The position numbers and the translations under genes were made by a program. Below the pieces are notes generated by a model. The model saw nothing but the letters and a program-made list of their open reading frames with translations, searched no databases and had not been told where the DNA came from. Positions 10,876-16,330 of a stretch of 26,492 nt of DNA are shown here, piece after piece (positions within the stretch are counted from its first letter, which is position 1; each line of letters opens with the position of its first letter). The stretch covers positions 1 through 26,492 of IMG/VR virus record IMGVR_UViG_3300010354_000533. The stretch is one strand, 5' to 3'. Source of the stretch: a virus.

Positions 10876-12768
10876 CTATCGCTGGTAGGGCAACCGGCCC
10901 TGTCCGAGCTGCCCAAAGATGTAACGCAACTCATTTCCGGCTGTTGGAGTATTAGGCATTCCGAGGGCATGATTGACCGTTCTTGAGGTGCTTTGGTATC
11001 CACTTGAGGCTGCCGCAGCTCCGCGGCTGAGTGCTTCCACCGCCTGCCGCTGTAGGGAGGATGCCGCCCGTTGGGCACCTCCGTCCCACCAGGGCCGTCC
11101 AACGGTCTTCGGTCCGACGGCAGTACCGGCAGCAGACCCCCAGGGCACAAAGACCTCCTTTCCGTTCAGTCTTGCCCGACCAACGCGTGTTGGGCCGCCA
11201 AGCCTCTGGCCAGGATCTGAGACCATCGTCCCATCACCGTGCTGCCAGACAGGGGCGCCGCGATACGAACCGACCTGCCGTGGCTGGGGAGTGCTACCCG
11301 GGGCCATCGTTGCCCAGGTCAGACCCCCTGCAACATTGCCGATCAAGGAGGCAGCAGGGAGGACCCTGGTTGCAATCTCGGGAGCCGTCCGCTGCAGCAG
11401 GCCAGCGGCGGCGCCCGTGGCGTACTGGCCCACTACCTGGGCGCCCGCATTCCTTGCCGTGATCGCAGCAGCCCTGACGCCCTGACGCTGGTCAATCGCT
11501 TGCTGAAACTCGGGATCCGCCAGTGGCAGCGCAGATAGTGCGTTACCCGCTGCGCGATAGCCACGTCCAATGGCTCCGGCTACCCGGTCCCTTTCGTGTA
11601 GGCCAGCCAGGATCTCCCCAGCCTCTTTGCTGCGGGGGATCGTCAGCAGTGGGGCACGCTTGCCTTCCGGGTATTCACGAGTCCAACGATCGATCTCCGT
11701 TTCATAGACCGGCTTGATATTAAAATCCTTCTTTGGATCTTTTTGACTACCGTATAACATCGGTCCACCATCTGGCGTGCCATAGACATCGGTTGCTTTG
11801 CTAGCCGCTCCAAGAAACTCCCCTTCTCTTCGGCTTTTTAAGTAGTCACTTGCAAGGTCTGTCTTGCCTTGCAAAATCAGCCTTTTATAGCCTTCATCAT
11901 CGCTGCCGGCATTCCAGGTATTTCCCATGTCCGCCAAGGCTCGCCTTGAAGCCTCCTTTCGGTAGCCAGCCACGTCAACTCCGCGCTGCTCCGGATACTG
12001 AACATGCTGCATCACCGGCCCAAACGGCAACGCTCCAGGCTTGTCGTAGCCTCCCCGAATCTGAATAGCATCGCTATTGTCGTGAATAGCCGCTGCAACC
12101 GGGCTTACATTCAATGTGCCAACAGCCGGGACGACCCTCTCCGTCGTATCAACACCCAGTAAATCCGTCTGGCCACGCCATGAATCGGCCACCTGGCCGT
12201 AAAACTGTCTACCACGCCTGCGAAGCTCTTCCACCTCTTCCCTGCTTATTGGTGGGCGGTACGTCCGCTTTGGCGAATTAACTTCATCCATGCTACTGGA
12301 TTTGTTCCAGGCGTCACGCCATCCTTTATCTGAAAGCGTTTCAACCGGTTGACCATCCTTCTCGACTAGATGACGCGTCTGATCACTTTGGGTATAGTTG
12401 TATCTCTGCCTTAGGTCTTCAGTGATGCCATCAAGCTCTATTTCGCTGGCGATGCGTCCATTGCGTCGATGATCCAGGGAGTTAGCGAAACCAGTAGCGC
12501 CGGTTTGCCCCGCAAGGAGATTTGTACCTTGGACGTCAACAAAGAACTGCTGAGCCTCACCCCTTGGTGTTGGAGACACGCTTGCAAACTGATGCGCGGC
12601 ATCATGAATGTTCAGTTCCGGTGACGTATACTCATCCCCGTTTGGGAACCATTTGCCTATAAACCTATCACGCATTTCTTTTACGTTTCTTACCCGCTCA
12701 CCGGGGCCTGCGTTAACAGAAGCGAAATACCCACGCGCACGGTTCAGCGCCTCTTCACGTCCTGGCAT
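10876..12768 (-). CDS. Large probable virion protein
   Basis: A 630-residue protein read leftward from the ATG at 12768, with CAGGG just upstream. The N-terminal 350 residues are charged and AT-richer in codons. The C-terminal part is Ala/Gly-rich with hydrophobic helices (AAAITARNAGAQVVGQYATG, VLPAASLIGNVAGGLTW), as in internal or ejected virion proteins. A repeat-like 'VGSYRGAPVWQHGDGTMVSDPGQ' section follows. It is the last and longest gene of the leftward block. I recognise no enzymatic motif, and the structural role is inferred from size, composition and neighbours. Confidence 0.75.
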   Translation of the reverse strand: MPGREEALNRARGYFASVNAGPGERVRNVKEMRDRFIGKWFPNGDEYTSPELNIHDAAHQFASVSPTPRGEAQQFFVDVQGTNLLAGQTGATGFANSLDHRRNGRIASEIELDGITEDLRQRYNYTQSDQTRHLVEKDGQPVETLSDKGWRDAWNKSSSMDEVNSPKRTYRPPISREEVEELRRRGRQFYGQVADSWRGQTDLLGVDTTERVVPAVGTLNVSPVAAAIHDNSDAIQIRGGYDKPGALPFGPVMQHVQYPEQRGVDVAGYRKEASRRALADMGNTWNAGSDDEGYKRLILQGKTDLASDYLKSRREGEFLGAASKATDVYGTPDGGPMLYGSQKDPKKDFNIKPVYETEIDRWTREYPEGKRAPLLTIPRSKEAGEILAGLHERDRVAGAIGRGYRAAGNALSALPLADPEFQQAIDQRQGVRAAAITARNAGAQVVGQYATGAAAGLLQRTAPEIATRVLPAASLIGNVAGGLTWATMAPGSTPQPRQVGSYRGAPVWQHGDGTMVSDPGQRLGGPTRVGRARLNGKEVFVPWGSAAGTAVGPKTVGRPWWDGGAQRAASSLQRQAVEALSRGAAAASSGYQSTSRTVNHALGMPNTPTAGNELRYIFGQLGQGRLPYQR

Positions 12769-12820: not shown

Positions 12821-13768
12821 TCACCCCTGCAGCCAGCGTTCAGCGCCGGCCCTGACGGCCCGATCGGCCAGGTTGTAAACAGGGATCCCGTACCCTCCAG
12901 CGACGCGGATCGCGTGCCCCGTGCCGCCCACGTCCTGCCCTCCTGGCGTCCAGACCACTAGGCGCTTCCGTGGCGCCTCGAGTTTCGGACCAAGCAGCAC
13001 CATCACGTTCCGGGCGTTGTAATCGCGACCGCCCGGCCTGTACGGGTCCTCGTATTCCCTAGCGATTCGATGCGCCTCCTGCCAGCTCGGATACTGCCTG
13101 CTGTTGAAGACCCTTCGACCGGCGTACACGGGATCAGGACCTCTTAGATCGCTCGCCCCTGTGAGGAAGATCGCCATCGCCTCAGGGTCGTCGACCAGTC
13201 GCGTTGCAGCCCGATCAGCTCCAGGGGCCCCGCCGTGGGCGATCCGTCCGCCGCCAGCAGCGTGCTTCTGACCGATCAGGGAAATCAGATCCAGCACATC
13301 GGGCGGCGTTGCCCGGGCACCCCCGAAGGCCCAGATCGGGCCGCTGGGAGCAGCAGTGGACGCGATCAGCGCCTGGCCAGCCATGCGGCTTGCATCCTCT
13401 GTGGACCGCTGGATCAAGGGGCGAAAGACTGTTTGCACGGCCCTTGGGTTGTAGACCTGGGCGCGCAGCGAGGGATTGGCGTCGACGTAGTTCAGATTCC
13501 ATCCCTCGTGCTGCTCCCACGCCTGCCTACCTGCCGGGCTCGCCAGGTCAGGCCTCGCCACAGTGACGACCTCGTAGGGGTTTGAGTCCCCCTGGAACGT
13601 GATCACGTCGCCTGCACTGGCGAATGGCCGGCGAGTCGTCGCTGTCCTCAGCCCCTGCTGAATCAGCTCCAGCGTGCTCGCGCCCCGTGGAAACCGCTGC
13701 AGCAGGTCCGGCCGGAGGGCGGCTACTGGCATCCGGTAATACATTGGGACGCCTTCGATCCGCGCCAT
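12821..13768 (-). CDS. ASCH-SLOG two-domain protein
   Basis: A 315-residue protein read leftward from the ATG at 13768 (MARIEGVPMYYR), with GGGTGG just before it; a GTG at 13774 adds two residues. Residues about 20-95 resemble an ASCH domain: 'LIQQGLRTATTRRPFASAGDVITFQG' (Lys/Arg-x-x-T-x-R and a Gly-Asp turn), then 'YEVVTVARPDL' and 'EQHEGW'. ASCH domains bind RNA or modified nucleosides. Residues about 145-302 form a Rossmann-like SLOG domain: 'FGGARATPP', 'HGGAPGADRAATRL' (nucleotide-binding Gly-rich loop), 'NARNVMVLLG', 'VVWTPGG' and 'GGTGHAIRVAGGYGIPVYNL'. SLOG proteins bind or process nucleotides and nucleotide-derived signals. The position among virion-type genes is unusual. Confidence 0.75.
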   Translation of the reverse strand: MARIEGVPMYYRMPVAALRPDLLQRFPRGASTLELIQQGLRTATTRRPFASAGDVITFQGDSNPYEVVTVARPDLASPAGRQAWEQHEGWNLNYVDANPSLRAQVYNPRAVQTVFRPLIQRSTEDASRMAGQALIASTAAPSGPIWAFGGARATPPDVLDLISLIGQKHAAGGGRIAHGGAPGADRAATRLVDDPEAMAIFLTGASDLRGPDPVYAGRRVFNSRQYPSWQEAHRIAREYEDPYRPGGRDYNARNVMVLLGPKLEAPRKRLVVWTPGGQDVGGTGHAIRVAGGYGIPVYNLADRAVRAGAERWLQG

Positions 13769-13859
13769 GTCCACCCGTGCAGCACAGGTGTAAGCCTAGG
13801 CAAGCGTGCTAGAGGATCCCAAACCTCTGTCTCAGCTCTCGTTGCAAGGCCTGGGAAGC

Positions 13860-13910: not shown

Positions 13911-14558
13911 TCAGAACAAATCGTCTTCACCGTCCGCGTAGGCGGAAGGGCCCCTGAATAGGCTTTGCCTGTTGCGTTCCTGGATTGCCTCAACCGGCGA
14001 CATTAACACTCCCCATTCGTCATCACCGTTTTCAGGTAGATCCATATAGCGGCGTATCCTGGGGTCTCTTGAAGTTTCGGCGTATTGCCTCAAGAAGGAA
14101 ATCCCAGGCGGAAGCCCTCCCGTATAGGCGGACGGAGAAACCTCGCGCATCGCCTGGGCGAGAGCGACCAGGGGTGGCTTTTTTTCCTTCAGTTCAAGCT
14201 CTAGTGCCCTGTCGACAATCGCACGTCTGTACGCGTGAACTGCACCATCATAAAGTCCTGGCAAGGTTGAATCTCCAATCACTTGCATTTCATTTAGTCT
14301 CATGATCCGATTTCCACTAACTGCCTTCCAAACATTGTTTCTGGCGGCTTCCTCGGCCATCCGATTCTCAGTGGGTCCCGCATCCCATTCCGGATCGGGC
14401 CGGACACGCTTCCCGCCTGAAGATCTGTCACGCCTTTCTGCTCTGACGATCTTATTGAGCGCGTCACCAGCGAATCTCCTGGAATCAACTCCTTTCTCAT
14501 CGGGGTCCTCCCCTTCGCCTGCCATCCGCCTACGCGGTCCGCCTATTCCTGTTGTCAT
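13911..14558 (-). CDS. Probable virion protein with shared N-terminal tag (A)
   Basis: A 215-residue basic/acidic hydrophilic protein read leftward from the ATG at 14558, with AAGGGGAAC upstream as ribosome-binding site. Residues 6-19 (GGPRRRMAGEGEDP) are identical to the N-terminus of the next gene upstream (14577-15161), whereas the rest is unrelated. The middle is helical (LYDGAVHAYRRAIVDRALELELKEKK), and the C-terminus is acidic (YADGEDDLF). No enzyme motif is seen. A shared N-terminal leader on otherwise different neighbours resembles phage capsid-targeting or cleaved propeptide sequences. Confidence 0.75.
   Translation of the reverse strand: MTTGIGGPRRRMAGEGEDPDEKGVDSRRFAGDALNKIVRAERRDRSSGGKRVRPDPEWDAGPTENRMAEEAARNNVWKAVSGNRIMRLNEMQVIGDSTLPGLYDGAVHAYRRAIVDRALELELKEKKPPLVALAQAMREVSPSAYTGGLPPGISFLRQYAETSRDPRIRRYMDLPENGDDEWGVLMSPVEAIQERNRQSLFRGPSAYADGEDDLF
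14502..14558 (-). repeat. Shared N-terminal tag coding segment, copy A
   Basis: The first 19 codons of 13911-14558. Compared with 15105-15161, codons 6-19 differ at four positions, all synonymous (GGC/GGT, CGT/CGC, GGC/GGG, GAG/GAA). The conserved peptide is therefore kept by selection rather than by very recent copying. Confidence 0.85.
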
Positions 14559-14576
14559 TGGTGTTCCCCTTGGCTC

Positions 14577-15161
14577 CTAATTCCTTGGGTCGGCCATCTG
14601 GTTCATGGCGTAGCCAGCCCCCATCAGCCCAGCAATCAGTGCTCCTGCGCCCAGGGTGTTACGCCCGGCCCGGCGCACCCGCTGAACGCCCTCTTGATCA
14701 ACCGTGTAACGCCCATCGCCGGCCTTGCGCCTTTCATGGATGTAGTCCCGAATTAGGCGATCAACCTCCTGCTCCTGTTCGTCTAATGCCACCCTCTCGT
14801 TGACAAGGGCTTGGATGTCGCTCAACTTGTCGATCTGACTACTCCTGGCTTTATGAGCCAACAGCAGGCGCTCCACTTCGATTGGCAGCGATCTGGCCGC
14901 TAGTCCAGCCTCAGGGGAAACAGACGCAAGCCCGCCGGCGGCTGCCGCCATTGCTGCCGGAGCAATCATTGAGTAGAGAAGGTTTGCGGGAACTTCACCT
15001 GAATTGCTTGCCGTTGTCGGACCAGTGACCGCGTCAAGCGCACCCACGACAACCGGTAGCCCGATGGTCCCCATCAAGGCATGCCTCAGCAGATGCTTCA
15101 TCTCGGGGTCTTCCCCTTCCCCTGCCATCCGCCTGCGCGGTCCACCAGTTCCTATTGCCAT
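14577..15161 (-). CDS. Probable virion membrane-type protein with shared N-terminal tag (B)
   Basis: A 194-residue protein read leftward from the ATG at 15161. It begins with the same GGPRRRMAGEGEDP tag (residues 6-19) as 13911-14558. After the tag come hydrophobic segments at about 29-47 (LMGTIGLPVVVGALDAVTG) and 62-81 (AAAAGGLASV core), a charged helix at 113-145 (LVNERVALDEQEQEVDRLIRDYIHE), and a last hydrophobic helix (GAGALIAGLMGAGYAMNQM, 170-188). Such Ala/Gly-rich amphipathic proteins occur among internal or ejected virion proteins. No known family recognised. Confidence 0.75.
   Translation of the reverse strand: MAIGTGGPRRRMAGEGEDPEMKHLLRHALMGTIGLPVVVGALDAVTGPTTASNSGEVPANLLYSMIAPAAMAAAAGGLASVSPEAGLAARSLPIEVERLLLAHKARSSQIDKLSDIQALVNERVALDEQEQEVDRLIRDYIHERRKAGDGRYTVDQEGVQRVRRAGRNTLGAGALIAGLMGAGYAMNQMADPRN
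15105..15161 (-). repeat. Shared N-terminal tag coding segment, copy B
   Basis: The first 19 codons of 14577-15161, matching 14502-14558 with only synonymous changes in codons 6-19. Codons 2, 3 and 5 differ in sense. Outside the tag the two genes show no similarity by eye. Confidence 0.85.
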
Positions 15162-15172
15162 TAGCCTGCTCT

Positions 15173-16330
15173 TCAGCTCCTGCCGCTTTGCTGAAGCTGC
15201 GCCTCAAGTTCGCGAATGCGCCGGTCCTTGGGACTCTCTATCCCGAGCTGCTGGGCCAGCAGGGAGCCAGTAGCCAGGCCGCCCAGGATTCCCACTTCGT
15301 CACCAATGAACCGGCCTACAGCCCGGCCAACGTTCTGGCCGGTCACAGCAGGCGCTGGATCCAGAAAGGATCGCAGCGTCTCACCAACCGAGCGATCGGC
15401 GCCAGGCAGGCGCTCGTCGCTGTCCTTGTAACTATCGGCCGCCTTGTTGATGGCGTCGTCGATTGAGCCTGCTGCTTCCTTGGCTATCACCTGCTCAACC
15501 TGCTCGTACTCCTTCAGCAGGGCATCGAGGATCTTCTGCCGCTGCTCAGGCGGTAACGCCTCGATTCCTCGCAGGGCGGCGGCATCTGTCCTGCCCACCT
15601 TGACCTGCGGCGCTACCCGGGCAAACGTCTCGGCCGTCAGGCCGTACCGCTCAGCAAAGCCAGCGGGGTTCTCTGCGGCCTCGCGAGCCATGCGCGCCGA
15701 GGTCTCATTGATCAGGCTTTCCTGTACGGCCTGCTTCATCATCTGGCCCTGATGCTTCAGACCCTCGGCTGTCGTCTCCGAGCCGAGGGTACGCCCCAGC
15801 ATTGCCAGCATTCCCTCCTGGTTCCGAAGCGGGCCTTCGTGGACCATCTGGCCCACCCTGGCGCCAACCCTGCGGCCGAGCATGCCCATCCCGATGCCGC
15901 CGGCAATCGCCGTGGCCGTTTCCAGGGCCGTCTGCCCCAGTGGCTGATCACTCCCAAGCTGCGAGGCACCAGCCAGAACTCCTCCCATCGTCCCCTCGAG
16001 GATCTCTTCGCCCAAGGGGTCAGTGAGCAGGAAGCTGATCAGCTTGCTGCCTGCCATTGGAGTGCCTGTGGTCATCGGCGGGCCTAGCTGCGTTCCGGTG
16101 GACACGCCCGAGAAATCCAGCTCCAGCTGGCCAGGCGACACGGCAATCCTAGGAAACTCGCCACGCGCAGCCGCCGCGGCGGCGGCCTCCCTCGCCGCTC
16201 CAACACTGCCTTCCCTGGCGGCGGCGAGCTCCTCTGGCGTCAGAGGATTGCTCACTCGATAGGGGCTCACCCAGCGCCCACCGGTGCCCCTGGAGCGCAA
16301 TGGCAGAGTCAGCTGATACGAGCCCCGCAT
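15173..16330 (-). CDS. Probable virion protein
   Basis: A 385-residue protein read leftward from the ATG at 16330, two bases after the upstream stop. The Ala-rich N-terminal region (AAREAAAAAAARGEFP) is followed by a Gly-rich amphipathic section (TAIAGGIGMGMLGRRVGARVG), then helices (EQRQKILDALLKEYEQVEQVIAKEAAGSIDDAINKA) and a C-terminal helix ending QLQQSGRS. The composition fits an internal virion or membrane-active ejection protein. No catalytic motif is seen. It is translated together with 16333-16890. Confidence 0.7.
   Translation of the reverse strand: MRGSYQLTLPLRSRGTGGRWVSPYRVSNPLTPEELAAAREGSVGAAREAAAAAAARGEFPRIAVSPGQLELDFSGVSTGTQLGPPMTTGTPMAGSKLISFLLTDPLGEEILEGTMGGVLAGASQLGSDQPLGQTALETATAIAGGIGMGMLGRRVGARVGQMVHEGPLRNQEGMLAMLGRTLGSETTAEGLKHQGQMMKQAVQESLINETSARMAREAAENPAGFAERYGLTAETFARVAPQVKVGRTDAAALRGIEALPPEQRQKILDALLKEYEQVEQVIAKEAAGSIDDAINKAADSYKDSDERLPGADRSVGETLRSFLDPAPAVTGQNVGRAVGRFIGDEVGILGGLATGSLLAQQLGIESPKDRRIRELEAQLQQSGRS

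Follow-up and report, generated by a model that had tools for sequence, protein, structure and literature searches.

A peptide shared by two neighbouring genes

Why would two adjacent viral genes, the products of which are otherwise unrelated, carry the same peptide near their starts? The question is raised by IMG/VR record IMGVR_UViG_3300010354_000533, which was analysed over its whole length of 26,492 bases (hereafter the window) and is probably a genome fragment. Residues 6–19 of the two encoded proteins, P1 and P2 (N-termini MTTGIGGPRRRMAGEGEDP and MAIGTGGPRRRMAGEGEDP, respectively), are identical and read GGPRRRMAGEGEDP (Table 1). The DNA encoding the 14 residues has four nucleotide differences (codons 6, 9, 14 and 17), each of which is synonymous; silent changes make up 26% of the single changes in the tag codons, and the probability of observing four silent differences out of four is ~0.005. 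Outside the tag, the five preceding residues differ and 11 of the 42 nucleotides downstream match, and the upstream DNA has little in common except the ribosome-binding site AGGAGC. A direct repeat of 79 nucleotides (80% identity) covers leader and tag. When the window is searched by tblastn with P2, P1 is matched only via residues 1–25 (E = 1.2e-6), which argues that the identity is not due to chance and that the bodies are unrelated. Open reading frames, alignment and tblastn therefore bear out the initial annotation, which had reported identical residues, four synonymous differences and unrelated bodies.

No further copy of the 14-mer is present in the window, even when up to six substitutions are allowed, and an IMG/VR DNA-pattern search for the near-exact tag core returned no match. 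P1 carries a second, shorter motif, RFAG, and the working unit of the tag appears to be the core R[MFY]AG. As lone queries, P1 and P2 retrieved no relatives; P1 is without a homologue outside the window in single-sequence searches of relatives and databases, and the orthologues of P2 surfaced only among genomes reached via the neighbouring gene P3. The AlphaFold2 model of P2 is all-helical, with low confidence for residues 1–57 and the tag modelled as low-confidence coil, and that of P1 (mean pLDDT 50) is too poor for interpretation.

The core recurs in two other genes of the window, those of P4 and of a DprA-like protein, in which it lies within the linker ASRMAGQALIA that is conserved as PRMAGDALI in the closest relative, G001. 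P3 contains the variant PMAG, where its orthologues have RKAGSQLI (G015) or, in low-GC relatives, ALAGKF. We note that positions 10876–12768 of the window encode a 630-residue protein that adjoins the tagged genes and has no family match; a partly similar gene is found in the same cassette of one relative, G015.

Table 1. Positions of the tagged genes, their neighbours and the motif copies in the window
Feature	Position	Strand	Description
DprA-like protein	12821..13774	minus	317 aa; phrog_768 match in C-terminal part
RMAG core of DprA-like protein	13376..13387	minus	residues 130–133, linker before DprA-like domain
P1	13911..14558	minus	215 aa, tagged protein
Second core motif of P1, RFAG	14466..14477	minus	residues 28–31, within SRRFAGDALNKIV
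P1 copy of 14-residue tag GGPRRRMAGEGEDP	14502..14543	minus	RMAG core 14517–14528
P2	14577..15161	minus	194 aa, tagged helical protein; orthologues in G005, G006 and G001
P2 copy of 14-residue tag GGPRRRMAGEGEDP	15105..15146	minus	RMAG core 15120–15131
P3	15173..16330	minus	385 aa, conserved neighbour; orthologues in L004 and L005 adjoin large terminase
Variant motif PMAG in P3	16049..16060	minus	followed by SKLI
P4	16333..16890	minus	185 aa, glycine/alanine-rich hydrophobic, N-terminal motif; start MSLARMAGTALA (MSLARMAG)
RMAG core of P4	16867..16878	minus	residues 5–8

Relatives in the Synechococcus phage S-EIV1 lineage

Judged by P3, the window, which derives from an uncultured freshwater virus, probably belongs to the high-GC branch of the Synechococcus phage S-EIV1 lineage. 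Searches with P3 reached G001 (locus L003), in which P3 is 75% identical and which is the closest relative, as well as loci L004, L005 and others, and the P3 orthologue is in register with those of S-EIV1-lineage members. The P3 gene of L004 and L005 adjoins that of the large terminase (phrog_38, E = 5e-73), and the gene for a virion structural protein of portal size (phrog_20475, E = 2e-161) lies alongside. The sole annotated phage found with this portal-like protein is S-EIV1 itself (KJ410740, 47%), with which the long relatives have both terminase and portal-like protein in common. Both genes are also present in G001 and other P3-bearing genomes, whereas no terminase, portal or capsid gene is recognised in the window; P1 and P2, which had initially been labelled virion-type, are putative virion proteins here. 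No homologues of P1 or P2 were found in S-EIV1. A major head protein is recognised in G006, encoded on the terminase strand; between the other head-strand genes of this genome, in the part upstream of its terminase, lies a phosphoadenosine phosphosulfate reductase-like gene (L041:8667-9536). A scan of IMG/VR with the S-EIV1 portal-like protein picks up relatives in at least 433 stretches, compared with one annotated phage; the S-EIV1-like lineage is large and almost undescribed.

A four-residue core near the start of many unrelated proteins

Gene calls in the window and its relatives, made with our own script instead of a standard caller, place R[MFY]AG close to the N-terminus of numerous small, sequence-unrelated proteins, and not on two proteins only, as the initial annotation had described. 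The core consists of an arginine, a hydrophobic residue, an alanine and a glycine, usually followed by Asp, Glu or Ser and a helix. Tagged starts include MPVEKRMAGEEL, MSGMRMAGAAL, MRMAGSSPDL, MTRFAGERM, MDRFAGDQI and NRYAGDRLA, together with MMKRRMAGDDD and MAKQRMAGEKG in G015 and the variant MRLAGSPE in G005 and G006. Gene content next to P3 differs between relatives, and many of the genes located there carry the motif.

Two adjacent genes of G001 start with MTTIRYAGNAL and MTTIRYAGEVF, and this is the same phenomenon as in P1 and P2, with another peptide, in the closest relative of the window. The pair (L003:3590-4185) encodes unrelated bodies behind the same MTTIRYAG. One member (L003:3901-4185) is a free-standing DUF5754-like protein of 94 residues, the homologue of which is the C-terminal part of a protein annotated as capsid protease in Vibrio phage ICP1; its RYAG may partly reflect an older YRG of distant homologues.

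Across five genomes, with homologues collapsed, R[MFY]AG starts within the first 20 residues in 15 of 292 protein clusters, compared with 0–2 clusters for 23 permutations of its letters and an average of 0.5 for shuffles. On the strand of the terminase (the late strand), the wider form [RK][MFYL]AG starts at residues 2–11 in 19 of 187 clusters and at residues 12–30 in none, where 19 is an upper bound on the number of independent families, because remote homologues may have been split by the clustering threshold of E 1e-5. The motif was spotted by eye in these genomes before testing, against which two safeguards apply: the set of 187 clusters includes loci fetched later via the portal-like protein, and when all reduced-alphabet 4-mers are ranked without a preset motif, N-terminal basic-hydrophobic-Ala-Gly comes first on the late strand only. 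At any position within the gene, R[MFY]AG is found in 34 of 201 late-strand genes versus 2 of 289 genes on the other strand (p = 3e-12, five genomes), the latter count being properly 3, since the P2 orthologue of G006, the start of which was first miscalled, had been omitted. An artefact of base composition is opposed by the permuted letters, by the shuffles and by the other strand. No R[MFY]AG was found in two unrelated cyanophages, S-2L and S-LBS1, and literature searches returned no description of the motif, matches to 'RFAG' being, by title, papers on the rfaG gene.

The codons of the motif vary across the lineage, and its second position is Met, Phe, Tyr or Leu; it is therefore the peptide that is kept. 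We rejected a DNA-level element, such as a start context or recombination site, as the main account on the same evidence.

Conservation of the core and changes in its position

The four P2 orthologues, for two of which the start was corrected by hand in the alignment, are 25–40% identical in their bodies, and the arginine and alanine are the only invariant residues of the tag. Their core regions read RRRMAGEGEDP, RPRRMAADDN, TRFAGSDPD and MRMAGSSPD, within flanks that vary in sequence and length. Free drift of the tag among relatives, which the initial annotation had named as evidence against its reading, is thus seen for the flanks, whereas the R-x-A core stays. Together with the four silent differences out of four and the varying codons, this supports the earlier proposal that selection acts on the peptide. 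The P2 orthologues of G001 (L003:6708-7301) and G006 (L043:1597-1974) lie opposite the head-gene strand, unlike that of G005.

In a family of ~95 residues (19 members), an RFAG-type motif is internal, within a loop of variable length that precedes a GEFG element. Remote homologues of this family (profile comparison probability 96%, E 1.7e-9) lack the internal motif and carry RYAG or RFAG near their start instead. A motif that moves in this way is more readily explained as a docking site than as part of a fold. We also observe a protein of ~92 residues encoded just after the portal-like gene (L036/L154–L161; for example, L156:5783 onward) that has a motif towards each terminus, MRLAGSPE at the N-terminus and one of RFAG type close to the C-terminus, as well as a lysozyme-like protein of G006 (L044:704-1909) with RMAGEQLG in the linker between its N- and C-terminal parts.

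The motif is not the same across the whole S-EIV1 group. Low-GC relatives have little N-terminal R[MFYL]AG and a different variant instead: in S-EIV1 and two low-GC relatives, (hydrophobic)AG[KR][YF] is present in 14 of 167 late-strand genes versus 0 of 215 others, and two P3 orthologues also carry it N-terminally. The motif-bearing genes of S-EIV1 are located at record positions 15480, 48030, 50430 and 60269.

A candidate docking motif for virion accessory proteins

The observed motif, its enrichment, its strand bias, its conservation in orthologues and its change of position between homologues lead us to suggest, with a probability of roughly 0.55, that the P1/P2 peptide is an instance of a positionally flexible, linear docking motif by which accessory proteins are brought to virions during assembly. 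We infer a single binding partner among the assembly components, be it scaffold, capsid interior, portal or core protein: it would recognise the motif, and the variable accessory proteins that bear it would enter the virion or attach to it and so travel to the next cell. Further cargo would join by gaining the motif at its start or within a flexible linker. Membership of the tagged proteins in the virion is suggested by their strand and neighbourhood, and the P2 orthologues of G001 and G006, being on the other strand, count against the docking account. A more specific version is tentative: a single component of S-EIV1-like assembly may read an uncleaved, position-independent code, written as R[MFY]AG or (hydrophobic)AG[KR][YF] depending on the branch, with receptor and tags having changed together while the injected proteins were swapped.

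The initial annotation had envisaged a packaging or cleavage tag of the T4 type. The first part of this proposal agrees with a tag that is common to head-strand proteins whose bodies are diverse and resemble cargo, whereas proteolytic removal finds no support in the data. The capsid targeting sequences of T4 are cleaved (PMC5694885), and some internal copies of R[MFY]AG occupy linkers (those of the DprA-like protein and of the virion lysozyme-like protein of G006, for example), such that a head maturation protease could be imagined to trim N-termini or to part linked domains at this site. However, most N-terminal copies begin at residues 2–5, where a cut would take off almost nothing, and no prohead protease is recognised among the proteins of relatives that were tested (covering part of the genes), which together make cleavage improbable. 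In addition, P1 carries two copies, the motif is internal in another family and the tag GGPRRRMAGEGEDP is without a T4-type [LI]-x-E site. An address that acts after infection or expression, by binding a host protein or membrane or by guiding ejection through the portal, seems somewhat less improbable, yet still unlikely: small size is common among the tagged proteins, glycine/alanine-rich hydrophobic stretches occur in several of them and two tagged genes of the P2 family lie off the head-gene strand, but the bias towards the terminase strand is strong and the neighbours are terminase, portal-like and capsid genes. Moreover, differing forms in two branches are not expected of a host address, although the hosts may differ.

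The long repeat over leader and tag, and the near-identity of the G001 pair over the first 23 nucleotides, would also be expected if a gene start had recently been duplicated and the peptide had no function. As a full explanation this is very unlikely, since the tag differences are exclusively silent whereas the codons before and after differ freely, and since the core is kept in P2 orthologues with diverged bodies and reappears elsewhere in the lineage in different codons. Duplication may account for the length of the identity, not for the motif. Rather, the 14-residue identity is a local elaboration, for which the tagged 5' end of one gene was probably copied recently onto its neighbour, as in the G001 pair, and would then have been held by selection.

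Comparison with known packaging signals

The best reading by analogy is that the motif works like the capsid targeting sequences of T4 and phage P1, without detectable kinship. The set of T4 internal proteins varies between phages, whereas their capsid targeting sequence is conserved (PMC3012670); as in these proteins and Alt, a short N-terminal peptide is found here on varied, sequence-unrelated proteins. There is no likeness in sequence, however, and the present motif gives no sign of cleavage, can be internal and is a candidate packaging signal. For DarB of phage P1, a stretch of 30 residues at the N-terminus is sufficient to bring a foreign protein to the capsid (PMC9024508). That packaging signal is likewise N-terminal, but was established by experiment for one protein, whereas the four-residue core described here is found on many proteins and is known from their sequences. 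Closest in appearance to P1/P2 are gp53 and gp54 of SPN3US, head proteins with neighbouring numbers and identical N-termini that their authors liken to T4 capsid targeting sequences (PMC5694885). Unlike P1 and P2, which share the tag only, gp53 and gp54 are paralogues (34% identity overall) from which propeptides of >100 residues are removed. S-EIV1, with the terminase and portal-like protein of the window's relatives, has the (hydrophobic)AG[KR][YF] form in place of R[MFY]AG.

If the docking account is right, a four-residue motif would predict which of the mostly nameless proteins of these widespread and largely uncultured cyanophages ride in the particle, and the proteins that bear it would be candidates for injected proteins that act on the host cell. 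Capsid cargo tags would then arise beyond T4- and P1-like phages, uncleaved and without a fixed position, and the motif would offer a short peptide with which the loading of proteins into capsids could be attempted.
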